A DNA stretch of 45,360 nt from Seleniivibrio sp. (GTDB lineage Bacteria > Chrysiogenota > Deferribacteres > Deferribacterales > Geovibrionaceae). The stretch is from contig NZ_JAJOIL010000033.1 in the NCBI RefSeq assembly GCF_021209385.1, positions 1-45,360 of the forward strand, in the 5' to 3' direction. Positions 18,038 to 44,024 of the stretch are shown here, one piece after another. Every line of letters starts with the position of its first letter. Within the stretch, counting starts at the first letter, position 1. The notes beneath the pieces are model-generated. The model was given only the letters and a program-made list of their open reading frames with translations. It ran no database searches and was not told the origin of the DNA. A program made the position numbers and the translations under genes.

Positions 18038-18047
18038 ATGTCACCTC

Positions 18048-24372: not shown

Positions 24373-25501
24373 TATAGTTTCAGGTATATCGGGCGATATG
24401 TCCGTTGGGGTCCTCTGCGGGCTTGGGCTTGATATTGCAGAGGCGGCAAAGCTCGTTTCGGATATGGTCGGAGTTGAGATAAAGGCATCCGTGGAGAGCG
24501 CCGACGTTTCCGGTGTCGTCTGCGGTCGGCTCAGACTTGACCTGCCCCATGAGCACGCCCACAGAACAATGAAGGATATCCGCGCCATGCTGGAGCGCTC
24601 CGCTTTTTCCGAACAGGTGAAAAGGGATGCCGTCGGCATATTCCAGATAATTGCCGATGCGGAAGGTGCGGTTCACGGCAAATCGCCTGATGATGTGCAT
24701 TTTCATGAAGTGGGCGCACTGGATTCTATATTCGATATAGCGGTATTTGCCTACGGTGTTGAAAAACTCGGCATAAAAGAGATAACGTCCTCTCTGCCTG
24801 TTCTCGGCAGCGGAATGGTTAAGATGGCGCACGGCATAATGCCTGTGCCTGCTCCTGCGGTGCTGAAAATACTTGAGGGAGTTGAGATCGCCCCCTCTTA
24901 CGAACAGACTGAAATGACCACGCCTACGGGCGCTGCTATATTGAAATATTATGTGAAAAGATACGGCGGACTGTCCGGCAAAATTATAAAAACCGCGTTT
25001 TCCACAGGCACAAAGACCTTTAAAACCGTGCCGAACATGCTTCGCGGCATACTCATTGAGGGCGCTGTGCAGAGGGGACTTGTGATGGCTGAGACCTCCA
25101 TCGACGACTGTACCGGCGAGATGATGGGGCATCTCTTTGCAAGGCTGAAATCCATTGCTACTGATATCACTATTACCCAGTCCATCGGAAAAAAGAACAG
25201 ACCTGTTTTCCTGGTGAACGTACTTTGCGAGCAGGATAATCTTGAAGCTGTTGCGCGTGTGCTTTTTGCGGACACGTCCACAGCCGGACTAAGGTATTAC
25301 TCTGTTGACCGAATCATAATGGACAGGCGGATGGAGAGCGTCGATGTCCGCGGTGAAACGGTGCATGTTAAAGTGCTTGAATATAAAGAAATAATAAAAT
25401 ACAGCCCTGAATGGGATGATTGCGTAGCGGCTGGCGAAAAGCTGAATATGCCTGCGGCAGAGGTTTATTCCGCGGCTAAAGCAGTTTTTTACCGCTTTTG
25501 A
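24344..25501 (+). CDS. larC: Nickel-pincer cofactor biosynthesis protein LarC
   Basis: CTP-dependent cyclometallase (DUF111) that inserts nickel into the pincer cofactor of lactate racemase and related LarA-type enzymes. 385 aa in a single frame. The N-terminal part has FDIVSGISGDMSVGVL and the histidine-rich DDVHFHEVGALDSIFD near residue 120; the central part has TPTGAAILKYY near 190; the C-terminal domain begins near 260 with ETSIDDCTGEMMG. In Lactobacillus plantarum larC is read through a programmed frameshift; here no shift is needed. LarA, LarB and LarE are not in the window. The last 26 bp overlap the convergent GGDEF-EAL gene. Confidence 0.88.
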   Translation: MSADTTLHFDIVSGISGDMSVGVLCGLGLDIAEAAKLVSDMVGVEIKASVESADVSGVVCGRLRLDLPHEHAHRTMKDIRAMLERSAFSEQVKRDAVGIFQIIADAEGAVHGKSPDDVHFHEVGALDSIFDIAVFAYGVEKLGIKEITSSLPVLGSGMVKMAHGIMPVPAPAVLKILEGVEIAPSYEQTEMTTPTGAAILKYYVKRYGGLSGKIIKTAFSTGTKTFKTVPNMLRGILIEGAVQRGLVMAETSIDDCTGEMMGHLFARLKSIATDITITQSIGKKNRPVFLVNVLCEQDNLEAVARVLFADTSTAGLRYYSVDRIIMDRRMESVDVRGETVHVKVLEYKEIIKYSPEWDDCVAAGEKLNMPAAEVYSAAKAVFYRF

Positions 25502-28376
25502 GCAGCTCGATGAATTCGTCGTATGAAAGGGGTCTGCTGAAAAAATAGCCTTGTATTTCGTCACATCCGCGTTCCCGGCAGAAATCGAGCTGTGCCTGAG
25601 TTTCCACACCTTCTGCGATAACCTGTAGGTTGAGACCTTTTGCCAGATTGATTATCGCCGTTGAGATGGCTATGTCGTCCGGGTCGTCGGGGATGTCTTT
25701 TATGAACTGTCTGTCTACCTTGAGAATATTTATTGGGAACAGTTTCAGGTAGCTGAGGGATGAATATCCCGTTCCGAAATCGTCGATAGATATCTTTATT
25801 CCCTGCTGAACCAGATGCGCGAGGGCGATTATCGTTGTCTGGATATCCTCCATCATTGTGTTCTCGGTTATCTCAAGCCCCAGAAGATCCGGTTTTATCC
25901 CTGTGGACTTAACAATTGAACATACTGTGTCTATAAGGTTTTCGTCTCGGAACTGTCTTGCGGACAGGTTCACTGCAACATCTATGTCGGTAAATCCCAT
26001 TTTTTGCCATTTTACGGCGTCTTCGCAGGCCTTTATCAGTACGGTTCTGCCTATTGAGATTATGTGTCCGGTCTCTTCCGCAACAGGTATAAACTCCGAG
26101 GGAGGAATAAGCTCACCGTCTCTGTTCCAGCGGATAAGAGCTTCCGCACCGGTTATATCTCCCGTCAGAAGGCTCACCTTCGGCTGATATACCACGCCGA
26201 AATCGCCTGCTGCCACAGCCTTGCGCAGTTCTTTTTCCATGTTAACGCGGGAAAGTACCTTTTCGTTCATATTTTTAGTGAAAAGCTGATAGCCGTTCTT
26301 TCCCGTCTCTTTTACACGGTACATTGCAAGATCCGCGTTCTTCACCATGGTAAGAACATCTTCACCATCGTCGGGATAGATGGTTATGCCCAGACTGGCG
26401 TTTATAAAGAATTCGTTTCCGGTGATGTTGATCGGTTTTGCGAACTCCGACAGTATGCGTCTTGAGGTGTCAACTGCGTTGGATTCCGACAGGATGTCCT
26501 GAAGGATGAGCATAAACTCGTCGCCGCCCAGACGAGCAACCGTATCTTCCGTTCGGACACAGCTCTTAAGTATCTCTGCAACTTTTTGCAGGAGAATATC
26601 ACCGACATAGTGTCCAAGTGTATCGTTAACGTTTTTGAAGTTATCGAGGTCGATAAAGATGACCGCGATCTTTTGGTTGTGCCGTTTTGCGTATGCTATC
26701 GCCATTTCAAGGCGGTCGTTGAAAAGCTGCCTGTTCGGAAGTCCGGTCAGTGTGTCGTGGTTTGCCTGATATTTCAGCTTCTCTTCGCCCTGCTTAACTT
26801 CCGATATGTCGTGGAACACTGCAACAAAGTGGGTTATGTTGTTCAGTTCGTCGCGTATGGCGTTGATGGAGAGCCATTCCGGATATGCGTCGCCGTTTTT
26901 GCGCCTGTTCCATATCTCCCCCGACCAGTTGCCTTTTTTTATAAGGCTGTCCCACATGCGGTGGTAGAACTGTTCGTCATGCTTTTCGGATTTCAGTATG
27001 CGCGGCGTTTTGCCGATAACCTCGTCCGGTGTGTAGCCTGTTATCTCAGTGAAGGCCGGGTTCACCTGCATTATAGTGCCGAAGCAGTCGGTTATGGTGA
27101 TGCCCTCAATGGTATTTTCTATAACGTTTGCGGCAAGAACAAGCTGACGCTCTTTTTCGATCCGCTCGTCAATCTCTTCCATCAGCTGCCGGTTCGCCTT
27201 GTTCAGCTCATCCGTGCGCTTTTTTACCAGCGTTTCAAGATGGTTTCTGTATTTCTCAAGCTCGCTTTCCGTTTTTTTTCTATCCGTTATGTCCAGAGCA
27301 TATTCTATCATCTGAACAACCTGCCCCTTTTCGTTGAAAACGGGTTGTCCGTGTATCTCGTAATATGTCTTTGAACCGTCGTCCTGCGTATGAATCTGCT
27401 CGCGTACGCAGGGTTGACGGGTAGTTTTAACAGTTTCAAGAGGACATTCGAGCGAATCCAGAAAGCAGGCTTTGCCCTTCCCGTGTAACAGTTCATAGCA
27501 TTTAACGTTTGTTGCGCCGCCAGCCGCACTGTTTGAAATGACGACATCCATTGTTTCCGTGTCCACAACAAAGAAGGGATTTGATATTGATTCCAGTATA
27601 TGATGAAGGAATTTGAGCTGTTTCACCATAGCGTCGTGGGAAAGTTTCTTATCGGTGACGTCGGTTATTGAGCACATAAATCCTTTTATGCTGTGTTTGC
27701 TGCCCCTGACATAGTCCCATGCCAGCTCGACATAAACGACCTCTCCGTTCTTTTTCAGATGTTTATGTGTGAAACGGGTCGGCAGAGCCTCGTTAATTGC
27801 CGCCCTTCTGAAATTGTCTACAACGTAGCTCCCGCTGTGTTCGTCCATGAGTATTGACAGGCTTTTGCCTTTAAGCTCTTCGGAGCTGTAACCGTATATT
27901 TCGTGTATGGCTTTGTTTGCAGAGATTATCCGGCACTCCGTGTCCATCTCTATCATGCCGCCGGGCATAGTTGAAAGAATGGTCTCAAGACGTGTTGAAA
28001 TTTCGGAACTGCCGGACGTGTCCGACATATAGCCGCTTACGCAGGTTTCGCCATTATTATTTCTTATACTGAAAAATGCGCGGACGTTAATAGTCTTTCC
28101 TGAACCGCATATCGTTCTGAAACCGGATTCAAAGCTGGAATCCTGCCCTCTCTGCACACTGTCTTCAATAGCAGAAAGTACCTTGAAACGGTCTTCGCGG
28201 AATACGATATCCGTGAATGCCAGTCCCTTTTCAACATCAGCACCGTCGTATCCTATGACCTTTGAAGAATTATGAGATATCCAGACAAAGGGGTATCCTG
28301 GTTCAGGTTTCAGCCTGAAAAAAACTATACTCCCATTGTTTAAGAGGTCTCCGATGCATATGTCCGTATTTATCAT
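25476..28376 (-). CDS. Multi-PAS diguanylate cyclase/phosphodiesterase (GGDEF-EAL)
   Basis: 966-aa cytoplasmic c-di-GMP enzyme with four PAS domains at about residues 16-120, 126-240, 257-365 and 414-525, with a coiled coil near 370-410, then GGDEF (545-700) and EAL (715-960). The cyclase site RLGGDEF (residues 617-621) is intact. So are the phosphodiesterase motifs: EALIRW at 745, EITENTMMED near 835, DDFGTGYSSLSYLK near 865 and the DRQFIKDI and EGVETQAQ blocks. Hence it could make or break c-di-GMP, with PAS input deciding. PAS3 carries CYELLHGKGKACF with further cysteines. No membrane segments. AGGTAAATACC precedes the ATG. It lies 50 bp after the REC-HPt gene, last in the chemosensory operon. 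Confidence 0.92.
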   Translation of the reverse strand: MINTDICIGDLLNNGSIVFFRLKPEPGYPFVWISHNSSKVIGYDGADVEKGLAFTDIVFREDRFKVLSAIEDSVQRGQDSSFESGFRTICGSGKTINVRAFFSIRNNNGETCVSGYMSDTSGSSEISTRLETILSTMPGGMIEMDTECRIISANKAIHEIYGYSSEELKGKSLSILMDEHSGSYVVDNFRRAAINEALPTRFTHKHLKKNGEVVYVELAWDYVRGSKHSIKGFMCSITDVTDKKLSHDAMVKQLKFLHHILESISNPFFVVDTETMDVVISNSAAGGATNVKCYELLHGKGKACFLDSLECPLETVKTTRQPCVREQIHTQDDGSKTYYEIHGQPVFNEKGQVVQMIEYALDITDRKKTESELEKYRNHLETLVKKRTDELNKANRQLMEEIDERIEKERQLVLAANVIENTIEGITITDCFGTIMQVNPAFTEITGYTPDEVIGKTPRILKSEKHDEQFYHRMWDSLIKKGNWSGEIWNRRKNGDAYPEWLSINAIRDELNNITHFVAVFHDISEVKQGEEKLKYQANHDTLTGLPNRQLFNDRLEMAIAYAKRHNQKIAVIFIDLDNFKNVNDTLGHYVGDILLQKVAEILKSCVRTEDTVARLGGDEFMLILQDILSESNAVDTSRRILSEFAKPINITGNEFFINASLGITIYPDDGEDVLTMVKNADLAMYRVKETGKNGYQLFTKNMNEKVLSRVNMEKELRKAVAAGDFGVVYQPKVSLLTGDITGAEALIRWNRDGELIPPSEFIPVAEETGHIISIGRTVLIKACEDAVKWQKMGFTDIDVAVNLSARQFRDENLIDTVCSIVKSTGIKPDLLGLEITENTMMEDIQTTIIALAHLVQQGIKISIDDFGTGYSSLSYLKLFPINILKVDRQFIKDIPDDPDDIAISTAIINLAKGLNLQVIAEGVETQAQLDFCRERGCDEIQGYFFSRPLSYDEFIELLKSGKKLL

Positions 28377-28426
28377 GGTATTTACCTAATATAATTTAAC
28401 AGAAAGGTAAGGCGGGTGCAAGTCTG

Positions 28427-29110
28427 TCAGCGTGTGAATAATGCCCGAAATTTATTGTAACAGCAGTGAATTCTGATAAGGGACAGTTTAACATTGTCTC
28501 TATCTGATTTATCAGCATTCTGCATTTCGGCACAAAGCTCCTGAAGTCCGGTTACCATCATGCCAGCCGCTGCACCCTTCATCTTGTGGGCGGTGTGAGT
28601 GGTCATTTCTTTATCGTTGGCGTAAACGGCATTTCTGAGGTTAAGATACTCTTCATCCATGACAGATATGAATTCGTCCATAAGCATCAGCATGGTTTCG
28701 TTATCCAGTCCGATTTTTTCTGATACGTCATCAAAGTCATAAAGCATCTCTTTTTTACATTCGGACAATGCGTTCAGAAAATTCAGTATATTTTCACTCA
28801 TAAAAGGTTTAAAGAGGGCAAAATCGAAAAGCGGATCGTCAGAATATTCATCGTCGGCAGAGATACACACCAGAACGGGAAGTTTGCGGTTATTCTCCTT
28901 TGCATTTTTCCTGATCTTCTCTGCACATTCAGGACCCTGCATCAGGGGCATGTTTATGTCCAGAAAAATCGCGTCGAAATCTTCCGCCAGTGCTATGTCA
29001 AGCGCCTGTTGTCCGTCTTCCGCAGGAATACATTCAACGCCCATCTTCTGCATAAGCTTTGAAAGGAGTGTTCTGTTGAGTTTGTCGTCGTCGGCTATCA
29101 GCAGTTTCAT
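28427..29110 (-). CDS. Response regulator receiver-HPt protein
   Basis: 227 aa. The receiver domain (1-115) has acidic pocket DDD (residues 7-9), phospho-acceptor D51 in FLDINMP, and the lysine in LFKPF near 101. A histidine phosphotransfer domain follows at 125-225, with H175 in THTAHKMKGAAAG. A receiver linked to HPt without a DNA-binding domain suggests a phosphorelay or phosphate sink tied to the CheA in this operon. Eight bases separate it from the gene upstream. Confidence 0.9.
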   Translation of the reverse strand: MKLLIADDDKLNRTLLSKLMQKMGVECIPAEDGQQALDIALAEDFDAIFLDINMPLMQGPECAEKIRKNAKENNRKLPVLVCISADDEYSDDPLFDFALFKPFMSENILNFLNALSECKKEMLYDFDDVSEKIGLDNETMLMLMDEFISVMDEEYLNLRNAVYANDKEMTTHTAHKMKGAAAGMMVTGLQELCAEMQNADKSDRDNVKLSLIRIHCCYNKFRALFTR

Positions 29111-29118
29111 AGTTATGC

Positions 29119-30591
29119 CTAAAAGAACTCTATGCTGGACTGCTCGTCTTCTGATGCGAGTATGTCTTTCAGTTCAGATTCGTTTCTGCCTCTGGTGAAG
29201 TCTTCGTCGGAAAGTATTTCATTGGTGAGCCTATTGTTGAATTTTTCAAACTCTTCCTGAACGTTGTCAATGAATTCGCTGAACAGATCAATGAGTTTTT
29301 CAGTGTTGGTGTCAAAGAAACTCATATATTTATCGCCTGTGAAGATATTGCGGAAATTAGTGAGCTGGTTTTCAAGGTCGTATGTGTTCTTGAGCATGTA
29401 GTCTCTTTCCGTGGACGTGTTGGAACTGCAAATATATTTCAGATGTGTTCCCGCCTCTTTAAAGGTTGAACTGAAATCCGTCTGCAGATCCTGCCATAGA
29501 GTAATATTTGCGTGTAGTTTTGCTATAAGCCTCTGAAGTTCCTGTTCAGTGCTCAACATGGATGAGACCACGCTTTTCAGGTCTTCGTCGTTTATTCTGG
29601 CAACTTCTATAGCTGTCACAACCACAAGGTTTTTGAATGTTTTGGATTGTTTTCCAAGTCCGTTTACACGCATCGACGCCTGATTTATAACCGTCTGGGA
29701 ACGGGTTGTTTTCAGCTGAAGGTCGTTTATTGTGCTGCATATTGTGCTTGAAACCTCATGCACACGCATAAGTTCTTCGCGCAGGATATTGGTTTTGCCG
29801 ACGATATTCTGCAGGTCGGTGTTGAAGGAGTACAGGAAGTCCTTCATGATCTCTTTTATGTTGTAGAGCTTGCTTTGCAGTTCACTTTTCACAAAATCCA
29901 GTTTTGCCAGCGCCTTTTCGTATATGCCGAATACAGTTCCGGCTTCGTAAGCCCCGCTGAAACTGTTTTTGCCCATGGCGTCTTTGATTATTTCAAGTTC
30001 CTGCGAAAAGATGTCGTGAAACTGGGAGTTTTCAATAAGCTCCGATACATCCGACGTGATGACTATAGTGTCTGTGTCGTCCAGTTTAAGAAATTCCGCA
30101 CTGCTGTTTATATCGCTGTTGATTATGTTCTCTGCTATATACCTGAACTGTTCGTAAACGGCGGCAAATTCTTTGGTTATTTCATCCAGAAGGGTTTTAA
30201 CGGTTGTTGAGTATTTTTTTATCTCTTTGCTGATGTGGGTAATGGTTGAACCTTTATCGCCCAGCGCCATTGTCCTGCAAATGGTATTGTATGACAGAAG
30301 CTCAAGCTCTTCCGTTATGGAGAGAAAAGTATCTGTGGCATCGTTCAGCTCTCCACGCATCTTCTCCATGTTCAGATTTTCTATTTTCTTGTTGATGTTG
30401 TCCGAAATGTGGCGGACTATCTCATCCGTGTTGCCGACAAAGCTGTTCGAGTCGCTCTGAATCTTCTCTCCAACGCTCAGCATTGCGCCGAAACTTTCAC
30501 TGCGGTGTTCGATTATTTCGTTTATTATCCCTACGATCTGTAAAAAACACCCGTCGATTTCTTTTTTAAGTCTGTCGTATGCGCTATTCAT
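29119..30591 (-). CDS. Receptor-like helical protein with degenerate MCP tips and CheZ-like motif
   Basis: 490 aa, almost wholly helical, no membrane segment, no Pfam-level name I can give. Residues about 96-127 (LELLSYNTICRTMALGDKG...) resemble the chemoreceptor tip pattern in spacing but lack the [10 protein letters not shown] core. A second stretch near 320-350 (VVVTAIEVARINDED) looks the same way. Residues 189-199, SQFHDIFSQEL, match the D-x3-Q phosphatase signature of CheZ (FQDLTGQ), with D193 and Q197. The operon has no CheZ, CheC or CheX, so a CheY-P phosphatase or a receptor-like scaffold is a fair hypothesis. It overlaps the REC gene by 8 bp. Confidence 0.6.
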   Translation of the reverse strand: MNSAYDRLKKEIDGCFLQIVGIINEIIEHRSESFGAMLSVGEKIQSDSNSFVGNTDEIVRHISDNINKKIENLNMEKMRGELNDATDTFLSITEELELLSYNTICRTMALGDKGSTITHISKEIKKYSTTVKTLLDEITKEFAAVYEQFRYIAENIINSDINSSAEFLKLDDTDTIVITSDVSELIENSQFHDIFSQELEIIKDAMGKNSFSGAYEAGTVFGIYEKALAKLDFVKSELQSKLYNIKEIMKDFLYSFNTDLQNIVGKTNILREELMRVHEVSSTICSTINDLQLKTTRSQTVINQASMRVNGLGKQSKTFKNLVVVTAIEVARINDEDLKSVVSSMLSTEQELQRLIAKLHANITLWQDLQTDFSSTFKEAGTHLKYICSSNTSTERDYMLKNTYDLENQLTNFRNIFTGDKYMSFFDTNTEKLIDLFSEFIDNVQEEFEKFNNRLTNEILSDEDFTRGRNESELKDILASEDEQSSIEFF

Positions 30592-30940
30592 ATGCTCTTA
30601 GTGTCTCTGCGAGAAGAGTCTCTGTAACGGGTTTAAATATAATGCCGTCAAATCCTGCTCCGCCGAGATTGCTCTTTTCGGCAACGTCTGCCGTAAGAGC
30701 GATGTATTTTGTTTTTGTCCAATTGTGCTCAATTTTAAGCATATTCAGGATATCGACACCTGTTATGCCCGGTTCCAGCCTGAAATCCACAAGAGCAACG
30801 TCCGGCTGCTGCATGGATGGGAGCAGTTTTCTCAGCACGTTCGCGGATTCCGCAGTATCAACTTTATGTTTCAGTTTCTCCAATAGTATCTTACACATCT
30901 TCAGGTGAAGAGAGTTGTCGTCCACAATAAGTACATTCAT
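30584..30940 (-). CDS. Single-domain response regulator
   Basis: 118-aa stand-alone receiver. Acidic pocket DDN (residues 7-9), phospho-acceptor D52 in ALVDFRLEPG, threonine in IALTADV and lysine in GIIFKPV. It is more distant from CheY than the other receivers in the operon: the usual N-M-P after the aspartate is replaced by R-L-E. It is therefore probably a phosphate acceptor with a different partner, perhaps the REC-HPt protein or the helical protein encoded next to it. Confidence 0.88.
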   Translation of the reverse strand: MNVLIVDDNSLHLKMCKILLEKLKHKVDTAESANVLRKLLPSMQQPDVALVDFRLEPGITGVDILNMLKIEHNWTKTKYIALTADVAEKSNLGGAGFDGIIFKPVTETLLAETLRAYE

Positions 30941-30951
30941 AATTCCCGCCG

Positions 30952-33894
30952 CTATAATAATTTGTTAACATTCAAAACCAGAACAGCCTGTCCGTCGCCA
31001 AGTATGGTAACACCGCCTATGTAATTGAGATGAGCGAAGTATTCCGGCACGGGTTTGATGGCAATGTCCATTCTGTTCAGCAGTTCATCCACAATTATAC
31101 CCGTTTTTCCCTCATCTGTAACCGTTATAACGATATTAACCTCATCGGCGAGTTCTTTTTCCTCGTCGCCGAGCAGTTTTGAAAGCTGTATCAGAGGCAG
31201 TACGTTGCCTCTGTAGTATATCCCGTTGCCGAAATGGAGGTCCTTGACCTGTTCTTTGGCAACCTTTATGGTTTCCGCCACGTTCTCAATGGGGAAAGCG
31301 TAGTGTTCATCAGGTTTCATGCGCACAAGAAGCGATGTTGACATGCCTATTGTTACGGGTATTTTCATTACCATTCTTGAACCGTCGCCCAGAGACGACT
31401 GAACGTCTATTGTGCCGCCTACGCTGGTTATGGAGCTTTTAACGACATCCATGCCTACGCCGCGTCCGGAGATGTCCGTCACCTGTTCCGCGGTTGAGAA
31501 GCCGGGCGCAAGGATGAACTGTATTATCTCGTTGTCGGAAAGCACTGCATCATCGGGAGCGAGTCCTTTCTGTATGGCCTTTGCCAGAATCTTTTTAGGA
31601 TCCATTCCGCGTCCGTCGTCGATAACCTCGATATAGACGAAACTGCCCTCGTTGTATGCCTTCAGAATGAGCTGCCCCTCTTCCGGTTTGGAAGCTTTCG
31701 ATCTTTCTTCAGGTGATTCGATACCGTGGTCACAGGAGTTTCGCACAAGGTGAACCAGCGGGTCGGAGAGGATATCCGCTATCTTTTTGTCAATCTCTGT
31801 GTCTTCGCCTATTATGCGCAGGTCTATCTGTTTGTTCTGCTTGCGTGCGATGTCTCTGACAACGCGTGGGAATTTGTTGAATATCTGCTTAATGGGCACC
31901 ATGCGCAGAGACATTATGTCGCGCTGGAGATCCTGAGAAATGCGGGATATCAGGTTTGAATTGTCCTTGAAGTCTTTTATCAGACTTGTGGGGAGATCAA
32001 ACTCGCGTATGAGCCTCTGCATCATATATTCGTATGCGTTCTTCGCCACCACAAGTTCGCCTATGGTGTTTGTGAATTTGTCTATTTTCTCCTGATCCAC
32101 CTTCATGGACTGGGAATATTTCTCTTTGGAGGTATCGCCCTTCTCCTCCTGTTCTTCTTTTGTGAGGGCGGAGGCGAGGGATATGCTGCTGCTGTCGGAT
32201 TCGGGAACGCTCGTGGTGGCTTTCATGATAACCTGTTTTTTAAGGGCTATCTCAAGGTCTTTGGGCTCAAGTTTGCCTTGATTCACAAGTATCTCGCCTA
32301 TCTTCTTCTGCTGAGCCTTAGCTTCCTCGATTTCTTTTGCAGTGACCTTGCCGGACTCAATCAGCAGTTCGCCGAGTTTCTTTGCCGGAGATTTCAGGTC
32401 TTTGATATAATGCTCTATCTGTGTCAGCTCGGATGAGAAGTCTGCTCCCGCTCCTGCTTTATCTGCGAATTTATGTGCTATTTCCATCAGGTCGGTAAAA
32501 CCTATGAACTTGGCGGCATTGGAAAATCCCATGGCGGCACGTTTAAGCATGCCGGCATTGTTTCCATCCGCTTTTGCCAGTGAAATTATCTCGAAGAACT
32601 GATCCACCTGTGCAAGGAATATCTTTACGTCGCCTGTTACGGCAGGAACTTTCTCTTCCAGTGTCAGCATAGACTCCTGGAGGTTTTGCAACTGCCTGTA
32701 AGTTTTCGGCAGCTCGGGTGTTGTGTTGTTCAGAAGCGATTTCACCAGCGCTTTAACGTCTGATATGACGTTGAGAATGAATTCAGCCGCTTTTCTGTCG
32801 AAAACAATTGAGCCTGAACGCACTTTGTCCAGCATGTTTTCGACAAGGTGGGCGTATTTCTCAAGGAAGGTGAAACCGACGTATCCGCAGTCACCCTTTA
32901 TGTTGTGAAAAACACGGAAGATGTTGTCCACCGCATCTTTTTTGCCTTCGCCTGTTTTTTCTATGTCTATCAGGAAATTCTCTATTGACTCAAAATAGTC
33001 TTCGATACCGCTGGCAAGCTCCGCCAGCATTTCGTACTGGATGCCGGACGTGTTCACAGTATCGACGTCAGGCTCCGCTTCGGAGAATTCTTCAGCCTGT
33101 ACCTGTGCTTCGGGTTCTTCCTGAACAGGCGCCGCCTGTTCTTTAAGAGATATCTCTGTGATGGTTATGAGGTCAGGGTCGAATGCCAGATCGGCTATCT
33201 CTTCTGTTGCCGCGTCGCTTATTATGTATATTTCGGGACGCAGGCAAAGCTTATAAGGTTCCAGAGCCGACAGTTCGGATATCTTTGAGGTGTCTGTGAC
33301 TGCCAGGTAGTATTCGGATATCTCCTTAAGGTTGGCAAGGAGTGTCTGCGGGTCGTAGCCGTTTTCAAGCATGTCGTCGGTGAAGTTCACCTGAATTTTG
33401 TATGCTTTACCGAATCCAGGGTCGTTCAGACGCAGATGTTCAGTGATATCTGCCGCCGCGCTCGGAAGGTTTTTTACAACGGTTTCGGTTTTCTGCACTT
33501 CTTCATGTTCTTCGCCGTTTGTGGCCTCATACATGGCTATTATGTCAGAAAGATTGCGGTCGTATGGTCTTTTATCGCGTGCGTACTGTATCATTTCAAA
33601 GAGGATGTCCACTCCTTTCAGAAGCAGGTCTGTTATATCCCCGTCAATTTTGATCTCACCGTTTCTCAGCTTGTCCAGCAGTGATTCAAGGTGGTGTGCG
33701 AACTCCGACATATTATCGAACCCGAACCCTCCTGCACTGCCCTTTATGGTGTGGATATTGCGGAAAACCGCGTTGAACAGTTCCGCATCTCCCTCCGATT
33801 CGGCTTTAAGGATGCTTTCGTTGGCGTTTTCAAGGAGGTCTGCTGCCTCCTCAAGAAACTCCATCCTGAATTTTTCCATGTCGATCTGAGTCAT
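30952..33894 (-). CDS. cheA: Chemotaxis histidine kinase CheA, multi-HPt form
   Basis: 980 aa, far longer than classical CheA (about 650). Order: HPt1 (about 1-110, H48 in RNIHTIKGSAGG); a P2-like region (about 160-250); HPt2 (about 285-390, H330 in FHNIKGDCGYVG); a third HPt-like bundle (about 430-485) in which the histidine is replaced; two short GEILV/GELLI repeats (about 506-555) like those of MshEN domains; dimerisation P3 (about 600-665); ATPase P4 with VHLVRNSCDHGIES, DDGRGM and GRGVGMDVV; and CheW-like P5 to the end. I start at the ATG at 33894 (GGAG 7 nt upstream), not the TTG at 33924. It phosphorylates CheY and CheB in response to the receptors. Confidence 0.94.
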   Translation of the reverse strand: MTQIDMEKFRMEFLEEAADLLENANESILKAESEGDAELFNAVFRNIHTIKGSAGGFGFDNMSEFAHHLESLLDKLRNGEIKIDGDITDLLLKGVDILFEMIQYARDKRPYDRNLSDIIAMYEATNGEEHEEVQKTETVVKNLPSAAADITEHLRLNDPGFGKAYKIQVNFTDDMLENGYDPQTLLANLKEISEYYLAVTDTSKISELSALEPYKLCLRPEIYIISDAATEEIADLAFDPDLITITEISLKEQAAPVQEEPEAQVQAEEFSEAEPDVDTVNTSGIQYEMLAELASGIEDYFESIENFLIDIEKTGEGKKDAVDNIFRVFHNIKGDCGYVGFTFLEKYAHLVENMLDKVRSGSIVFDRKAAEFILNVISDVKALVKSLLNNTTPELPKTYRQLQNLQESMLTLEEKVPAVTGDVKIFLAQVDQFFEIISLAKADGNNAGMLKRAAMGFSNAAKFIGFTDLMEIAHKFADKAGAGADFSSELTQIEHYIKDLKSPAKKLGELLIESGKVTAKEIEEAKAQQKKIGEILVNQGKLEPKDLEIALKKQVIMKATTSVPESDSSSISLASALTKEEQEEKGDTSKEKYSQSMKVDQEKIDKFTNTIGELVVAKNAYEYMMQRLIREFDLPTSLIKDFKDNSNLISRISQDLQRDIMSLRMVPIKQIFNKFPRVVRDIARKQNKQIDLRIIGEDTEIDKKIADILSDPLVHLVRNSCDHGIESPEERSKASKPEEGQLILKAYNEGSFVYIEVIDDGRGMDPKKILAKAIQKGLAPDDAVLSDNEIIQFILAPGFSTAEQVTDISGRGVGMDVVKSSITSVGGTIDVQSSLGDGSRMVMKIPVTIGMSTSLLVRMKPDEHYAFPIENVAETIKVAKEQVKDLHFGNGIYYRGNVLPLIQLSKLLGDEEKELADEVNIVITVTDEGKTGIIVDELLNRMDIAIKPVPEYFAHLNYIGGVTILGDGQAVLVLNVNKLL

Positions 33895-33910
33895 ATTTCC
33901 ACTCCGGTAA

Positions 33911-34276: not shown

Positions 34277-34278
34277 AA

Positions 34279-35106: not shown

Positions 35107-35124
35107 AATCAGCTTGTGCCGCTC

Positions 35125-36180: not shown

Positions 36181-36196
36181 TTGTCTGCTCCTGCCG

Positions 36197-36560
36197 TCAG
36201 CCGATTATCTTTTTTATTACAGCAAGAAGGTCGTTCGGTTTGAAAGGCTTTACTATCCACGCTTTCGCGCCCGCCTGTCTGCCCTCTTCCTTGATGCCAG
36301 CCTGAGATTCTGTCGTCAGCATTATTACAGGCGTAAATCTATGGGTAGGGTTTTTCTTCATCTCTTTAAGAAAGGTGATGCCGTCCATGTTTGGCATGTT
36401 GACATCGGAAACGACAAGATTGAAGCGCCCCGTTTCAAGTTTTTTTAAGCGCGTCCACCCCGTCCCTCGCGTCCACAACTTCGTAGCCGGCAGACTTCAG
36501 AGTTGCCGCAACAAGCTGACGCATGGTTATGGCATCGTCAACAATAAGGATACGTTTCAT
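36197..36560 (-). pseudogene. CheY-type response regulator, frameshifted in an A7 run
   Basis: Translation starts at the ATG at 36560 with an excellent GGAGG site and reads MKRILIVDDAITMRQLV... to DGVDALKK, then meets a TGA just after an A7 run (T7 at 36440-36446 on the plus strand). The other frame continues with LETGRFNLVVSDVNMPNMDG, TTESQAG and WIVKPFKPNDL to 36197. Removing one A gives a perfect CheY of about 120 aa with phospho-acceptor D52. A +1 shift is needed, so the -1 heptamer A AAA AAC does not help. Mutation, base-calling error, or transcript slippage are all possible. Confidence 0.8.
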
Positions 36561-36856
36561 TAATTTCCTCCGATCGCATCTTGTATCTGCAATCCGTACA
36601 AACAGATTAATTTATCAAATGATTCACATGATTTGAGAGTTATTTTTGAGCCTGCGTCCTTCGCAGTCTTAAACAGTGAAAGAGCTATCTGCAAAAACAC
36701 TGTGTCCATGGATGAAACCTTTGTCATATCGGCTTCAAGCTCTTTCCCGCCGAAAGATGTTTCGCCGAAAAGCGACAGGAATTCTTCCGCCATGAAGATT
36801 TCGGATTCGTCGGGGAAAGTGACTTTGATTTTGGTTTTAAGCTCTTTAACTTCCAT
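36560..36856 (-). CDS. STAS-domain protein
   Basis: 98 aa. The fold suggested is STAS (SpoIIAA/sulfate-transporter antagonist): a beta-strand KIKVTFPDESEIF, a mixed central part with ADMTKVSSMDTVFLQIALSL containing the conserved D-x-S-type segment near residue 45, and the closing strand ITLKSCES. It starts at the ATG at 36856 (AAGG 8 nt upstream); a longer start would add 14 residues from the cheB tail. Stop and cheY start overlap by one base (TAATG). STAS partners usually act in switch or scaffold complexes; one in a che operon is a plausible CheW- or kinase-associated adaptor. Confidence 0.75.
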   Translation of the reverse strand: MEVKELKTKIKVTFPDESEIFMAEEFLSLFGETSFGGKELEADMTKVSSMDTVFLQIALSLFKTAKDAGSKITLKSCESFDKLICLYGLQIQDAIGGN

Positions 36857-36857
36857 A

Positions 36858-37931
36858 TCACCAACCTTTTTCCACTTTTCTGCATATCTCCGCGGCAATC
36901 TTATAGCTGGGGAGTACTATGTCCGTGCAGCCTTTAAGCACCGCCTCTTTCGGCATGCCGTAAACAACGGCTGTTTCTTCGGATTCTGCTATGGTGTACC
37001 CGCCGGCCTGTTTAATTTTACACATTGACGCGGCGCCGTCATTGCCCATACCTGTCATGAGGACGCCCAATGTCTTATCGCCGAAAACACCGGAAACAGA
37101 TTCCATCATTATGTCAACACTGGGGATGAACGCATGTTCAGGGGTTTTCCCCAGCCTGATGGTTATTTCGCCGTTCATCTTTTTGTAAAGCGTCATGTGG
37201 TTTCCCGCTTTGCCAACATAGCATACCCCGGGGGTCACTATGTCTCCGGGTGTAACTTCTTTGACGGTTACGCGGCAGGAATCGTTAAGCCTTCTCGCAT
37301 AAGCCTCCGTAAAGCCCACAGGCATATGCTGAACCATGAATATCGCCGCGTTCAGGTTCTGCGGGATATGGGGCAGAACGTCGAAAATAGTCTTGGGTCC
37401 GCCTGTGGATATGCCTATGCAGACCGCTTTGAAGTCTCCGCCCGCCGCCCGCTCTGCCGGATATTCGGGTTCTTCCGCTTCGTGTTTTTCAAATCTGGGG
37501 ACGGATATTTTTCTTGTGAGTTTCGACAGACCTAGACCTGCCGCCGCCTTAACTTTTGCGGAAAGCTCCCTTTTGACCATATCAATGTCGCGGGAAACGG
37601 TTCCGCTGGGTTTCGCAACAAAGTCGAAAGCGCCAAGTTCCAGCGCCTGAAAGGTTGTCGTCGCGCCCTCCTGCGTCAGCGAGCTGAGCATTATTACAGG
37701 GCATATATTATTATCGGTGATGATCTTAAGGGCTGTCAGCCCGTCCATCACCGGCATGTTCACGTCAAGGGTTATGACATCCGGCTTAAGCGCCATTGCC
37801 TTTGCAACCCCGTCCTCTCCGTTTCTTGCCGTGTCAACGACCTCTATACCGAACGAATCATCCAGCATCTCTTTAATTTTCTTCCGCATTAATGCGGAAT
37901 CGTCGACAACCAGAACTCTTACTTTTTTCAT
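36858..37931 (-). CDS. cheB: Protein-glutamate methylesterase CheB
   Basis: Removes receptor methyl groups and deamidates glutamines; its receiver is activated by CheA. 357 aa. The receiver (1-120) has D56 in ITLDVNMPVMDG and K108 in FVAKPSG. The esterase (about 165-357) has the triad S175 (GISTGGP), H202 (VQHMP) and D298 (TGMGNDGA), all present. It overlaps the triple-CheW gene by ATGA and leads into the STAS gene after one base. Confidence 0.96.
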   Translation of the reverse strand: MKKVRVLVVDDSALMRKKIKEMLDDSFGIEVVDTARNGEDGVAKAMALKPDVITLDVNMPVMDGLTALKIITDNNICPVIMLSSLTQEGATTTFQALELGAFDFVAKPSGTVSRDIDMVKRELSAKVKAAAGLGLSKLTRKISVPRFEKHEAEEPEYPAERAAGGDFKAVCIGISTGGPKTIFDVLPHIPQNLNAAIFMVQHMPVGFTEAYARRLNDSCRVTVKEVTPGDIVTPGVCYVGKAGNHMTLYKKMNGEITIRLGKTPEHAFIPSVDIMMESVSGVFGDKTLGVLMTGMGNDGAASMCKIKQAGGYTIAESEETAVVYGMPKEAVLKGCTDIVLPSYKIAAEICRKVEKGW

Positions 37932-39439
37932 TCCTGTTTCATTTTCTCCAGTTTGCTCATTTCGGATTGCGAGAACAGGTCTTCAATGTTGAGCAGAAGT
38001 ATCATCTTCTGCTTGCTGTTCAAGCTAACGACCCCTCCGATGAATTCCGAGCTTACGGTTGCGGAAAGAACAGGCGGAACTGCGTCGATCTCTTCGTTTT
38101 TGATCCGCAGAACCTCGTCAACCCCGTCAACGACGAAGCCGACCTTCATTTTTTTCAGATTAACGATGATAATGCGGGTAAATTCATCCCGTTCCTTAGC
38201 CTTCAGGTCGAAACGGGTGCGCAGGTCTATAAGCGGGATAACCTCGCCTCTGAGATTGATGATGCCTTCCACGAATTTGGGTGTTTTAGGCACCTTCGTA
38301 ACGTTGGTGTAGCGGTTTATCTCCTGAACCTTTTCAATAAGGATACCGTATTGTTCGTTCTCTATTTCAAAGGTGACTATCTGCTTTTCATCGTCTTTTG
38401 AATGGGAGTTAAGGTCACTCATAGTCAGATCCCCTGCGGACTGATCGGCAACCTTTGAAAGCGCCTCCAGTTCCGATTTGTTCATGATATTCTTCGGCTC
38501 GAGAGCCATAACCAGTCTTTCGCCCTTTTCCAGCTTAAGCACGGCGGCTATCTCGCTGTTTTCTTCTGCAAAAGCTTTCGGAGGTTCCTCAATGAGATTC
38601 TCTTCAACGCTCAGCACGGCGTTCACTTTGTCCGCGGCAAAAGCCACCAGCACGTTGTTTATGTCAACGATGATCACTCTGCTGTTTTCATTGATAACGC
38701 TGTTTTTCCTTCCGAACTTGTCGTGGAGCGAGATGAGCGGTATCACCTTCCCGCGCAGGGAGAAGATACCGAGAACATAGGCGGGAAGTCCGGGGATTGC
38801 CGTAACTTCCGGCATCCAGATTATCTCGTTTATACGGTGGATCTCCACAGCATATTCCTGTTTTCCTATGTTAAAGCTGATGAAGCGTTTTTCGTGCAGG
38901 TTCGCCGCCGCCGCCTCTTCCGCTTTTGCTGCTGCCGTTTTGCGGAATCCCTGCTTCTCTATCTGCGCTTTCAGCATCGCAATGTCGATTACTTCGTTGG
39001 TGTTGAGTATCTGGACGAGCATAACGCTGCCGCCCTGATTCACCTTCATTATTCCGCTGATATATCTTTTATCCACGTCCGCGTTGAGCATTTCGGGGAA
39101 AGCGTCAAGCTGGTGTACCTCTGTGGATTTCACTTCGCTTACGGATTCAACAACGAAGCCGTTGAGCGTACCCTCTTTTTCCACCACTATTACTCGGGTA
39201 TCGTCCGTGTTTTCGCATGGTTTCGTGTAGCCAAGGCGAAGCGAAAGATCTGTGAGGGGCATGACCTCACCTCTGAGGTTTGTCATACCCAGAACATGGG
39301 GGGGCATCTTCGGCACACGGGTGATGTGCGGCAGACGGATAATCTGTTTAACATCGTCTATGCCTATGCCGTATGTTTCCTGTCCGATGCGGAACGACAC
39401 ATATATGCTGTCCTGCCGGCTTTCAACTGATGATGACAT
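37928..39439 (-). CDS. Chemotaxis adaptor with three CheW domains
   Basis: 503 aa with three CheW folds in tandem: about residues 10-158, 187-335 and 352-495. The conserved turn NLRGE/SLRGK appears in each: 54-58, 227-231 and 395-399. The linkers (about 160-185 and 315-350) are charged and probably flexible. CheW couples receptor tips to CheA; three copies in one chain could bridge several receptors or form rings of CheW without CheA. It is the only CheW in the operon. The start has GAGGAGAG upstream. Confidence 0.93.
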   Translation of the reverse strand: MSSSVESRQDSIYVSFRIGQETYGIGIDDVKQIIRLPHITRVPKMPPHVLGMTNLRGEVMPLTDLSLRLGYTKPCENTDDTRVIVVEKEGTLNGFVVESVSEVKSTEVHQLDAFPEMLNADVDKRYISGIMKVNQGGSVMLVQILNTNEVIDIAMLKAQIEKQGFRKTAAAKAEEAAAANLHEKRFISFNIGKQEYAVEIHRINEIIWMPEVTAIPGLPAYVLGIFSLRGKVIPLISLHDKFGRKNSVINENSRVIIVDINNVLVAFAADKVNAVLSVEENLIEEPPKAFAEENSEIAAVLKLEKGERLVMALEPKNIMNKSELEALSKVADQSAGDLTMSDLNSHSKDDEKQIVTFEIENEQYGILIEKVQEINRYTNVTKVPKTPKFVEGIINLRGEVIPLIDLRTRFDLKAKERDEFTRIIIVNLKKMKVGFVVDGVDEVLRIKNEEIDAVPPVLSATVSSEFIGGVVSLNSKQKMILLLNIEDLFSQSEMSKLEKMKQE

Positions 39440-39477
39440 TTAATCTCTCCTCTGTCAGTATGCTGCAAGGAGCATTA

Positions 39478-41718
39478 TCAGAATGTCTGCATTTCGTCTG
39501 CGAGGGATGCAACCTCTTCTGCTGCTGCCGCTATTTCACGCAGACCTTTTACCTGCTCGTCTGCGGCATTTTTCGCCTCTTCGGAGAGAGCCTTAAGGTT
39601 TTCTGCCGCCTCTCTGCCCTCTTCACATGCTCCGTTGACCTGTTCGACTCTGGATTCAGCCGCGTCAACGTGTCCTGAACATGTTTTATAAAGCTCGATG
39701 AGGTGCTTGCGGATCATTCCCACTTCCGTAAGGTTGTCCACTGCGTACTGGGATTTTGTTATCTGCACGCGGATGAGAGAGGTGATCTCCGCCAGTTCAT
39801 TTTGAAAGTTGATGACCTGCTCATACATTTCGTCGAGGATGTCTTTCATTTTGTCCGCGTTGTCTGCGGATTCGTTTGCAAGTGCGCGGATGTCTGCGGC
39901 AACAACAGAAAAACCTCTTCCGTATTCGCCTGAGCGTGCCGCTTCAATATTGCCGTTTACTGCAAGCATATTGGTCTGGATAGCGACGTTGTTGATGGTG
40001 TCCACGATCTTTTTGATATTGCCGAACGATTTATTCAGTACGGTCACTTCATCGTGAACGTCTTTCAGGTTGTTGATGGAAGCAACGAAACCTTTGATGA
40101 TGAGTTCTATGCCGTGTTTAAAGTCTTTGAACTGAGTTTTGAATTCACCGACAGCAGGTCTCACCTTTTCGTCAAAAATGCGTCTTGCTTCCTGAATTTT
40201 GCCGTCTTTCATGAGGTTTACTATTTCGCCTGCACCAAGGTGGACATGGTTGTGAGGTTCGCGGATACACTCGTATGCCTTTTCTTCTTTTCCGTTGTCG
40301 GGTTTATATGAGAGATACCATGAACCGAACGCGCACTTTGTGGGGTCGAGCTGTCCGTGGAATTCGTGATTGTTGTTCATCGCGTCTTCAAGCTGATCTA
40401 TGAACACGAGGTGATCCAGAGCTTTTATCTCGTCCAGTGCATTATCAACCAGCTTTCCGTGATCAGCCATGACGTGCCAGCTGTTTTTAACGTTGTTTAT
40501 GTGAGTGCTTATTTTGTCGAATTCTTTGGTGATACCGGTTATTTCTGTGAATATCTCGGTTGTTCCGGTATCCATCTGGTCGATGGCTTTGAGAACCTCG
40601 TCTGCCGATGCGTCAAGCTCTTCGATTGTGGAAGAAAGCTCTTCCGCTGCCGCCGCAACCTCTTCGGAGGATTTAGCTATGTCGGTCGACTGTTTGAGGT
40701 CGTCCGCCATTTCAGCGAGTTCCTGAGATGCAACGGTCAGTTCGCTGAACGCTTTTGTCTGTTCTTCGGTGAACTTTCCCACCTCTTCCGCCGCTGCCGC
40801 GTTCTGTTCCGCAGAGGATGCCAGCCTGTTCACAAGATCCATAGCGCGTGTGGATTCCTGACTGATTGCCACTGCACCGCTTTTGATCTTTCCGACTTCA
40901 ATGCCTATTTCATCCGTATGACTGCCGACATAGCCGCAATGTTTGGAGATGAAATCTGCTTTATAAAGGTTTGTTCTGGAAAGAATAAGGAAGCTGTCAA
41001 CCTTGCTGACAACGTGCTGAACCTGGGTGAGCGACTGATCTATAACGTTTTTAATGTTTTTTGCTGATTTTTCGGAAACTTCCGCCAGTGTGCGGACTTC
41101 GTCCGCGACAACGGCAAATCCTTTTCCGTGTTCTCCGGCTCTTGCCGCTTCAATGGCGGCGTTGAGCGCCAGAAGGTTCGTCTGGTCGGCAATTTTTGTA
41201 ACAACCTGAACTATCTGTCCGATGGAGTCCGCTTTTTCCTTAAGCTGGTCAACAAGCTGAGTTGATTCCTCAACTTTTTCCGTTGCGTCCTTAACGGAAT
41301 CTTTCAGTTCGTTTGCGGCAGTCACAGTGGATTTAACTTTTTTAATAAGTTCTGCCGTGGAGGTTTCATATTCTATGGTTGTGGAGAGTACGTTTTTTGC
41401 GTCTGTTTCAAGAGCGGTTGTGTCGTTTTTGATGCCTTCCGCGCTTCGGCTTGCCTGTGCGGAGGCTATTGTTACCTGTTCCATGGAGGCGTTAAGCTGG
41501 TTTGCCGCGCTTGAAGCCTGTTCAATAGCGGATGCCATCTCTTCGGATGCGGTGGCGAGTCTTTCCGCGTTTGACTGCTGTTTTGCCAGAGTTCTTGCTC
41601 TTGCTTTTTCAACAGCCATTTTTTTGGATTCCTCCCGTGAAGCTGCCGCTGAATCTGCATCCTTTTTTAAAATACCCGTCCTTCCGGCTAGGCTGGTGGG
41701 TTTCGCCAGCTTTTTCAT
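39478..41718 (-). CDS. Soluble chemoreceptor with two signalling hairpins and a CZB domain
   Basis: 746 aa, no membrane segment. Residues 1-40 are a basic, low-complexity lead. Tip 1 is at about 182-211 ([20 protein letters not shown]), a long coiled coil continues to about 430, a CZB-type zinc-binding domain lies at about 435-525 with H436, the [12 protein letters not shown] stretch with C462, and EPHNHVHLG near 488; tip 2 is at about 583-615 ([20 protein letters not shown]). Both tips are canonical. Two tips in one chain resemble the Vibrio DosM receptor. CZB domains sense zinc or hypochlorous acid in known receptors. I start at the ATG at 41718 with GGAGG 8 nt upstream. Confidence 0.92.
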
Positions 41719-41739
41719 AATCGATACCTCCAAATGAAC

Positions 41740-43239
41740 CTAATATATTTTTATATCACTAATCTTATCAGAATCGAAAGACGCTTTCAGCGTGAAATCG
41801 GTTTCCCTACCAGAATTAACATCTTTTGCGGTGATGGTTACGATGCCGCTGTCGTCTATGATGAAACAGATATCAATCAATTTCTCTTCTTCGCTATTTT
41901 CCACTGTAAAATCGAATTTTGCAAGGCTAATGAAGTATTCCGGATCGTCTTCCGGACTGTCGGAAACGTTAAGACTTGAGTGTGCGGTATCCTGCAGAAC
42001 ATGAACCGTTATATCGTTTATGTCGTCACTTGCCGTTGTGAACGTCTGTGTGAAAGATACGGGGTAGGGTTCGTTTTTCCGCATAATGACTTCAAACATT
42101 CCGTTGTCGTCTTCAAGCCCCATGTTGTGGCTTGTGACATCGAAAAAAGTTCTGTCGCCCAGAAGCCCCAGACGCATTGCGGCGTTTGTTGCCGCGCCGC
42201 AGACCACAGCCTCTTCGGGGTTCAGGTCTTTGCTGACTGATGCTCCGAACATTTCTTCTATGAATGCGCGCACGTTGCATATCCTGCTTGCGCCGCCCAC
42301 AGGAAGCACACGGCTTATGTCTTCAGGTTTTATGTTGTTCTCTTTAAGAAGTCCCTCGGTAATATCGCGGATGCCCTGAATGATGGGTTCGGTTATCTTA
42401 CCGAAGAGCTGTTTGTTCAGCTCCATCTTGAAATGCAGAGGACCTTTGGGGGTTATGGTTATGTATGGAATAACAAGATTTGTTTCGTTAAGGCTGGAAA
42501 GCTCCATTTTTGCTTTTTCCGCCTGAAAAAGTAACTGCTGATAGGCTATCGGGTCGGTTTTCAGGTCTATGCCGTGGAGTTTACGGAATTCTTCGTTGAG
42601 ATAGTCCGCAACTGCAACGTCAAAATCTACGCCGCCTATCTGTGTTGAGCCGCCTGTGGCTTTGACTTTCAAGCAGTCCTTGTTCAGCTCTATGAGGCTT
42701 ATGTCGAGCGTCCCGCCGCCAAGGTCGAAAACAAGGCATAGTTCGTTCTCTTTTTTGCCTATGTTGTTGTAGTATATCGCTGCGGCAGTGGGTTCGTTGA
42801 GCAGCGCAATAACCTCAAAACCCGCAGTCTGCGCCGCCGCACGGACAGCTTCCCGCTGGAGGTGGTCAAAATATGCAGGAACGGTTATGACGGCTTCCGC
42901 CGTGTCGTCACCTGTATAGTCTTTGTGCAGGTTTTTGAGCTTTTTAAAGAACAGAGCAGCCAGTTCCACCGCTGTGAAGTTTTTGCCGTATATCGAGAAT
43001 TCTTTATCGGATCCCATATATCTTTTGACGTTGGATATGGTGTTTTCCGATTCAAGCATCTGCATACTGCGGGCATTGTCGCCCGTAACAGCTTCCTTAC
43101 CGTTTTTGAAATATATCACAGACGGCAGGAATCGTTTTCCGCTGTCGGATGAAATGACCTCGATGGTTCCCTTCTCCTTAAATATTGCTATCATGGAGTT
43201 TGTAGTGCCGAAATCTATTCCGACGGGATATCTGCTCAT
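41740..43239 (-). CDS. Hsp70/DnaK-family ATPase, short form
   Basis: 499 aa versus about 640 for DnaK. The actin-like ATPase half (about 1-365) has all phosphate and adenosine motifs: VGIDFGTTNSMIA, FDLGGGTLDIS near residue 172, and LPVGGASRICNVRAF near 322. The beta-sandwich substrate-binding part (about 370-495) is recognisable (GIVTITAKDVNSGRETD), but the helical lid and the acidic C-terminal tail are missing. No dnaJ or grpE lies nearby. Located between parA-like and the receptor gene and overlapping parA by ATGA, it is presumably dedicated to array assembly or receptor folding. Confidence 0.9.
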   Translation of the reverse strand: MSRYPVGIDFGTTNSMIAIFKEKGTIEVISSDSGKRFLPSVIYFKNGKEAVTGDNARSMQMLESENTISNVKRYMGSDKEFSIYGKNFTAVELAALFFKKLKNLHKDYTGDDTAEAVITVPAYFDHLQREAVRAAAQTAGFEVIALLNEPTAAAIYYNNIGKKENELCLVFDLGGGTLDISLIELNKDCLKVKATGGSTQIGGVDFDVAVADYLNEEFRKLHGIDLKTDPIAYQQLLFQAEKAKMELSSLNETNLVIPYITITPKGPLHFKMELNKQLFGKITEPIIQGIRDITEGLLKENNIKPEDISRVLPVGGASRICNVRAFIEEMFGASVSKDLNPEEAVVCGAATNAAMRLGLLGDRTFFDVTSHNMGLEDDNGMFEVIMRKNEPYPVSFTQTFTTASDDINDITVHVLQDTAHSSLNVSDSPEDDPEYFISLAKFDFTVENSEEEKLIDICFIIDDSGIVTITAKDVNSGRETDFTLKASFDSDKISDIKIY

Positions 43240-44024
43240 TTGGACGCTCCTTTAGCGATTGTTACTTTTTCAAGTATAAAATCGGCTAAAAGATTGAAAT
43301 CCATACACCCTCTGCTGTTAGGAGCGAATAAATTTATAGGAATTCTGTATTCCGGTGCCTCGGCTATCCTGATATCGTTGCGGATTCGGGGTGATATCAT
43401 CTGTTCACCGAAGTTTTCGTTTATCTCTTTCATAACGCGTTTGGAGTGGTTGCTGCGGATGTCGTACTGGTTGGGGATGATGCCGCACATGCGCAGATCA
43501 GGATTAAACGCAGCGTTGATGCGGTAGATGGTCTGGGTGAGCTGTGCCAGCCCCTCTATGGCGAGGAAATTGAGCAATATCGGGATGAAAACCGATTCCG
43601 CAGCCGACAGTGCGTTCAGCGTGAGTGCCGCTACAGTGGGCGGTGTGTCTATAAGTATGCAGTCGTAATCGTTTCTGAAATCAAGTAAAACTTTCTTGAG
43701 CTGACCTTCGGGATTTTGACCGTCAAGAAGCTGTTTGATGAATGATGATGAGAAAGATGTGGATGCAGGCAGAACGTCGTAAAGCCCGTGTTCCGTGCGG
43801 AACAGAGTGTCTTTTCCGCTGCATTTGCCAAGCAGTGCGTCATAAATGCTGAGGTATGTGTCATATGTGTTGACGCCCGACCAGAAAGATAAGTGTGCCT
43901 GCGGGTCGAGGTCTACGGTCAGCACCCGATACCCGCGGCTTCCAAGTACCCCCGCCGTGTTGACCACTGTGGAGGTTTTCCCGCTGCCGCCTTTTTTGTT
44001 TGCAAATGTGATTACTGCTGACAT
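43236..44024 (-). CDS. ParA/Soj-type partition ATPase of the chemosensory operon
   Basis: 262 aa. The deviant Walker A KKGGSGKTSTVVNTAG is at residues 10-25, VDLDPQAHLS near 38 is motif II, and YDCILIDTPPTVAALTLNAL near 120 the Walker B. No helix-turn-helix N-terminus and no parB beside it, so it is not plasmid partition; ParA-like PpfA in Rhodobacter and ParC in Vibrio position chemoreceptor arrays, and this is the likely role here. I start at the ATG at 44024; the in-frame TTG at 44033 lies inside the -10 box. First gene of the operon that ends with the GGDEF-EAL protein. Confidence 0.9.
   Translation of the reverse strand: MSAVITFANKKGGSGKTSTVVNTAGVLGSRGYRVLTVDLDPQAHLSFWSGVNTYDTYLSIYDALLGKCSGKDTLFRTEHGLYDVLPASTSFSSSFIKQLLDGQNPEGQLKKVLLDFRNDYDCILIDTPPTVAALTLNALSAAESVFIPILLNFLAIEGLAQLTQTIYRINAAFNPDLRMCGIIPNQYDIRSNHSKRVMKEINENFGEQMISPRIRNDIRIAEAPEYRIPINLFAPNSRGCMDFNLLADFILEKVTIAKGASK

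Follow-up and report, generated by a model that had tools for sequence, protein, structure and literature searches.

Genes for a ParA-like ATPase and a short, lidless Hsp70 form a recurrent and optional module of chemosensory gene clusters of class F9, and one of these clusters is the operon described here. It comprises 15 minus-strand genes at positions 25476-44024 of the window (the whole stretch of 45,360 nt that was analysed), with intergenic gaps from -8 to +50 bp and with overlaps of 4 bp both between parA and hsp70 and between cheW3 and cheB. The original prediction had described fifteen co-oriented genes linked by overlaps or short gaps, and all of them are found at their coordinates on the minus strand, the largest gap being 50 bp. 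Its list of products is backed by Pfam matches across the operon (ParA, Hsp70, two MCPsignal plus CZB, three CheW, CheB, CheR, CheY/REC, HEAT_2, CheA, GGDEF and EAL), but the first cheY is broken in this genome. The genes are, from parA onwards:

43236..44024 (-), parA-like ATPase, 262 aa, with the deviant Walker A motif KKGGSGKT (AAA_31, 1.5e-43)
41740..43239 (-), lidless Hsp70, 499 aa (Pfam HSP70, 6.5e-117, covering positions 2-501 of 599)
39478..41718 (-), DosM-type soluble receptor, 746 aa (two MCPsignal; CZB, 43.1 bits)
37928..39439 (-), concatenated triple CheW (CheW3), 503 aa (three CheW stretches, 1.3e-102)
36858..37931 (-), CheB methylesterase with receiver domain (CheB_methylest, 8.2e-57)
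36560..36856 (-), STAS-like protein, 98 aa (STAS_2, 20.4 bits, below the cut-off of 29)
36197..36560 (-), first CheY, frameshifted here (Response_reg matches the downstream part)
35125..36180 (-), HEAT-repeat protein, 351 aa, adjoining cheR (HEAT_2, 6.4e-26)
34279..35106 (-), CheR methyltransferase (CheR, 1.6e-58)
33911..34276 (-), second CheY (Response_reg, 8.6e-29)
30952..33894 (-), CheA, 980 aa, Hpt-Hpt-MshEN-like-P3-P4-P5 (Pfam)
30584..30940 (-), single-domain receiver (Response_reg, 5.7e-15)
29119..30591 (-), coiled-coil protein, 490 aa, with an invariant QFHDIxxQ and a C-terminal S[ST][IV][ED]FF; putative CheY phosphatase
28427..29110 (-), receiver-Hpt protein (Pfam), found at genus level, as two ORFs in genus g4
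25476..28376 (-), PAS-GGDEF-EAL enzyme with three PAS stretches (EAL, 1e-74; GGDEF, 5.2e-53)

The combination of genes had been called an unrecognised one; its core, a double-tip receptor plus CheW3, is in fact the named and already known class F9, and what is new is the addition of ParA and Hsp70. This class is recognised by a receptor with a double signalling domain (DosM) and by a concatenated triple CheW (PMC9321776), and imaging in Vibrio has shown its arrays to be cytoplasmic and two-layered (PMC7534058). In our operon, the receptor has two MCPsignal stretches with the core tip residues preserved at both tips, and a triple CheW is likewise present in three other clusters (G182, G373 and G077). 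The claim that the operon has no membrane receptor stands, as the receptor is soluble and hydropathy reveals no convincing transmembrane helix in any product. By its receptor, its CheW3 and this absence of transmembrane segments, the system is identified at the sequence level as an F9-class chemosensory system, and the proposal of a cytoplasmic array is well supported by the soluble receptor, the triple CheW and the F9 signatures. The F9 identity of the core had been overlooked, together with a zinc-binding domain in the receptor, an MshEN-like segment in CheA and the break in the first cheY.

The closest parallel is cluster I of Vibrio cholerae (DosM/CheW3), which also combines a double-tip soluble receptor and a triple CheW with a full CheA/B/R/Y set, and whose host is likewise flagellated and has another che system (PMC7534058, PMC9321776); compared with it, the operon adds parA, the lidless hsp70, STAS, HEAT and the CZB domain of its receptor. 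By analogy with the Vibrio array, the DosM homologue would form an elongated soluble rod that binds CheA and CheW through a tip at either end. It would thereby connect two base plates of CheA and triple CheW, giving a sandwich array that is free of membrane. The receptor would be adapted by CheR and CheB, and CheA would phosphorylate the CheYs and the other receivers.

The layout of the receptor (a basic arm at residues 1-20, tip 1 at E190, CZB at about 430-540 and tip 2 at E592) points to an inserted zinc-binding (CZB) domain in the Seleniivibrio family. Its CZB match scores 43.1 bits, against a cut-off of 29.4, and H436, C462, H489 and H493 are invariant in the aligned sequences. The zinc ligands of CZB domains are three histidines and one cysteine. 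With the insert, the two tips lie 402 aa apart, and the spacing is exactly 300 aa in all 11 CZB-less receptors with both tips matched, among them those of G025, G182, G373, G077 and G504. Since 98% of DosM homologues are reported to have no sensory domain (PMC9321776), we note that CZB would provide the rod with its own zinc/redox sensor in this family.

The order of the first 13 genes, from parA through hsp70, receptor, cheW3, cheB, STAS, cheY, HEAT, cheR, cheY, cheA and REC to the gene for the 490-aa protein, is kept in 11 of the 12 genomes of the family (Seleniivibrio, Denitrovibrio and kin, this genome included). Because it persists though single operon proteins are as low as 37% identical between family genomes, the operon is more than a chance association and its reality is confirmed; a chance neighbourhood is ruled out by this conserved order together with the recurrence in our survey of F9 clusters. 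The syntenic clusters were located through the HEAT gene, an orthologue of which occurs in 11 of the 12 genomes, and also in G025, a member of another family with a near-identical gene order in which the last two genes are inverted; a genome scan with narrow peptide patterns reached close relatives only. In the remaining family member (G009, 99% complete), no HEAT, Hsp70, CheA or receptor belonging to this system was found, and the whole operon has probably been lost. The second CheY is the most conserved protein (74-99% identical), and the receptor measures 745-746 aa across the family and 646 aa in G025. The STAS-like protein, which in the alignment apparently lacks the usual phospho-serine, was not detected by tblastn in two of the clusters (L042 and L043).

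The unit as originally drawn is thus conserved family-wide from parA to the 490-aa gene, but the receiver-Hpt and GGDEF-EAL genes at its end are variable. The GGDEF-EAL enzyme is limited to this genus and was not found in other genera; at its position, G005 carries a DUF3391/HD_5 gene that probably encodes an HD-GYP-type enzyme. Of the "three signal-transfer proteins" of the original prediction, the receiver and the receiver-Hpt protein stand, but the second one (29119-30591) is a coiled-coil protein with no family match. The first cheY, with its ATG at 36560, contains a run of seven A (36446-36440, minus strand) that leads to a TGA at 36437-36435. It is intact, with the frame read through, in all 11 relatives, and the run is private to this genome, which does not favour a programmed frameshift; either a recent private mutation or indel, or a sequencing or assembly error, would account for it.

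The ParA-like protein shares with positioning ATPases of the PpfA/ParC type both the deviant Walker A and the location in a che operon. Its closest solved structures are ParA/Soj, its Walker motif is invariant in six aligned sequences, and orthologues occur in 11 other clusters. The Hsp70 consists of a nucleotide-binding domain and SBD-beta, aligns to DnaK 2v7y through SBD-beta, and ends at 499 aa without the alpha-helical lid, scoring 400 bits against a DnaK cut-off of 648. It measures 498-502 aa in all 12 clusters, its ATPase motifs are invariant, and in the window its C-terminal tail reads ..IKIY. Across 385 sampled genomes, this type of Hsp70 was detected in no more than 12 (E up to 1e-130).

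Receptors of class F9 allowed us to extend the survey to a second phylum, where parA and an hsp70 of 472-512 aa accompany the array genes in G504, G501, G547, G450, G527, G490 and G488, which represent five families. Among 27 F9 clusters, 19 have both genes, four have parA alone, four have neither and none has hsp70 alone, an association (Fisher 0.004) that is uncorrected for kinship. Co-occurrence in other genomes, raised in the original prediction as a check on the unit, is therefore seen in F9 clusters of two phyla, but some clusters have only parA or neither gene, and the pattern that was named as counting against the unit is thus seen in part only. In the stretch read, neither gene was found in G373, G467 and G468 (second phylum) or in G182 (another phylum), and parA occurs without hsp70 in G077, G444, G446 and G485. 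The last of these has parA and a TPR gene (L149, near 10461), but only some 50 bp at the site before dosM where its relatives have hsp70, and its genome shows DnaK only; as its close relatives G488 and G490 have hsp70, this is a natural deletion. Given the F9 clusters with parA only or with neither gene, and the clean absence of hsp70 from G485, F9 signalling in general does not depend on either of them.

In a tree with long branches, built only from 15 short Hsp70s and 12 DnaKs, the short proteins form one clade apart from the DnaKs of their hosts (100/100), and the genomes with a short Hsp70 also carry a normal DnaK. At their C-termini, the short Hsp70s carry a hydrophobic tail (IKIY, IEVL, LQVL, YKII and similar). 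That ParA and Hsp70 are linked to the array is supported by the recurrence in two phyla and by this dedicated Hsp70 clade. Overall, the original interpretation is partly supported. F9 clusters are known to transfer horizontally (PMC9321776) and one or both genes are missing from some of them, so parA and hsp70 might be mere passengers of a mobile cluster with no role in the array; this we hold to be very unlikely in view of the family-wide order, the recurrence in a second phylum, the 4-bp overlap, the single Hsp70 clade and the fact that hsp70 never occurs without parA.

A small TPR protein with an LGRGL-like N-terminus is encoded between parA and hsp70 in most second-phylum clusters that have both genes; such proteins follow directly on parA in L140, L141, L143, L147, L148 and L149. 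This start resembles the N-termini of ParB proteins, and these TPR proteins are possible ParB-like partners; the operon in the window has no separate partner of this kind. A TPR protein gene does lie upstream of parA near the contig end (44718-45215, minus strand), and the LGRGL motif was not seen at its start. F9 clusters of a third phylum (L116, L123 and L125) have parA followed by an ORF of 154-164 aa (with TPR repeats in L116), cheD and two cheR, and no hsp70. Near the distant CheA matches of G280, G341, G285, G191 and G299, no match to parA or hsp70 was found.

The reading that we favour, with moderate confidence, is that the operon encodes a two-layer cytoplasmic array of class F9, which ParA places and an Hsp70 of its own remodels. 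We infer both of these activities, as well as the geometry of the array and its zinc and c-di-GMP inputs. ParA on the nucleoid would place or partition the array, as PpfA does with TlpT, and the Hsp70, co-translated with ParA, would act on array components to control assembly, size or disassembly, which is the weakest step of the scheme. Two known systems offer precedents for placement. The PpfA/TlpT cluster of Rhodobacter sphaeroides also combines a ParA homologue in a che operon with a soluble receptor (PMC10924463), but TlpT is not described as double-tipped, nor are an Hsp70 or a triple CheW described in the cited texts. ParC of Vibrio and Halothiobacillus is likewise a ParA/MinD-family ATPase that places chemotaxis arrays, in Halothiobacillus from within the chemotaxis operon (PMC10241942), but it acts on flagellar chemotaxis clusters and its partner is CheW or ParP.

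For the Hsp70, the nearest parallel is StkA of Myxococcus xanthus, an Hsp70-like protein genetically tied to a chemosensory pathway (PMC4319316), which differs in its length of 540 aa and in being encoded with stkB and stkC, ParA not being described. StkA is not heat-induced and acts between the pili and Dif (PMC4319316), and it has been proposed as an ATP-driven signalling protein upstream of Dif. Our Hsp70, lidless and diverged from DnaK, could be such a pathway component instead of an array chaperone; its conserved nucleotide-binding motifs and SBD-beta, and the fact that StkA is not described within a che operon, make this rather unlikely in our estimate. In our search of the literature, which covered papers but not their supplements, no publication turned up that connects Hsp70 and ParA with a chemosensory operon.

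If the Hsp70 is a chaperone of the array, its most likely target would be the disordered basic arm of the receptor, MKKLAKP..GRTGI[VL]KK. Hydrophobic peptides with basic flanks suit DnaK-type sites. Residues 1-20 are predicted to be disordered (AF2 pLDDT below 50), the arm has 12-17 K/R in 55 residues, and its sequences in the window and in G025 are 50% identical despite the differing receptor bodies. A motif picked by eye, [TP]G[IL]..[KR], is present in 19 of 19 receptors from clusters with parA and hsp70 and in none of four where both are absent; among the parA-only clusters it is present in G485 and absent in G077 and G444, and the start of the G446 receptor is cut by the contig end. The arm as a whole had been considered a ParA-specific trait, a view that was narrowed when MKKLARP also appeared in the parA-less G182.

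ParA partners act through positively charged disordered N-termini (PMC10241942), and FrzCD binds DNA by a positively charged tail (PMC5716589); by analogy, the receptor motif could bind ParA, or Hsp70, or DNA. Direct binding of the arm to nucleoid DNA as in FrzCD, with ParA serving another partner, would be in line with the basic composition of the arm, but the arms of parA-less clusters are basic too and still have no [TP]G[IL] motif, and we regard this option as improbable. Returning to the array placed by ParA and remodelled by Hsp70, a bolder and so far tentative version, which we would not yet bet on, is that the recurrent ParA-Hsp70 module makes the F9 array an actively built and partitioned organelle, in which Hsp70 recognises the receptor arm and, with ParA, sets the number, size and inheritance of arrays. 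If that is true, we know of no earlier case of a chaperone devoted to a chemoreceptor array. As the same additions accompany an F9 array in a second phylum, arrays of this type may have machinery of their own for placement and remodelling. The lidless Hsp70s, as a monophyletic subfamily that probably serves a single client, would offer a clean system for chaperone-driven assembly, and the CZB zinc/redox sensor, the MshEN-like segment of CheA and the ParA-Hsp70 pair would serve as handles on the sensing, building and inheritance of the array.

In CheA, both phosphorylatable Hpt histidines are invariant. Its MshEN-like segment resembles the MshEN domain in its tandem 24-residue motifs (PMC5013675), which are relaxed here and differ in a spacer of 1 instead of 5 residues and a K at motif position 11; the match to NF053729 (an MshE-related motif) reaches 37.8 bits, 0.2 under the NCBIfam cut-off of 38, and that to PilF GSPII reaches 9.4e-11. 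CheA-MshEN fusions have been reported earlier (PMC5013675). Another CheA, of 942 aa (L086, G280:C184, 692-3520), has two MshEN-type motifs whose spacer is close to normal, and its cluster lacks both parA and hsp70. The segment in our CheA, together with the c-di-GMP enzymes that vary at the 3' end of the operon, suggests a link with c-di-GMP, and the output would then be a motile/sessile switch rather than plain control of swimming.

Flagellar chemotaxis, with the array as a second input to the motor through the CheYs, is the obvious competitor: the operon has two CheYs, the genome has fliM and cheZ, and 97% of species with F9 carry a complete flagellar gene set (PMC9321776). We consider it fairly unlikely, as the host encodes another CheA, CheY and CheZ in a separate flagellar che locus, and the operon is equipped with receivers of its own, with a putative phosphatase and (in this genus) with a c-di-GMP enzyme. 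Two further CheAs are encoded on contigs C12 and C16 of the host genome. The flagellar locus also has its own HEAT-CheR pair (L093, G000:C18:32001-52000), and the idea that the HEAT gene is specific to the operon was rejected on that ground; the pairing may be general in the phylum. As a HEAT-repeat protein of a che region, the operon protein recalls the haloarchaeal OE2401F, an archaeal HEAT_PBS protein needed for Che-motor coupling (PMC2666748).

The assignment of the 490-aa protein as a putative CheY phosphatase is a guess based on its QFHDIxxQ motif, present in 12 of 12 orthologues. The host CheZ has EFQDITKQ, and the CheZ catalytic pattern DxxxQ lies within F[QH]D[IL]xxQ. A long coiled coil and an all-helical AF2 model characterise this protein, for which no Pfam, PDB-profile or Foldseek match was obtained (no PDB match below 1e-3). 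A degenerate double-tip receptor was ruled out (hhalign, 1%).

Outside the operon, a gene for a HAD-type hydrolase (44064-44630, plus strand) lies just upstream of parA in divergent orientation, and an ordinary group of tetrapyrrole biosynthesis genes (GlutR, porphobilinogen deaminase and ALAD) is found beside a cytochrome c assembly gene at 17066-20916.
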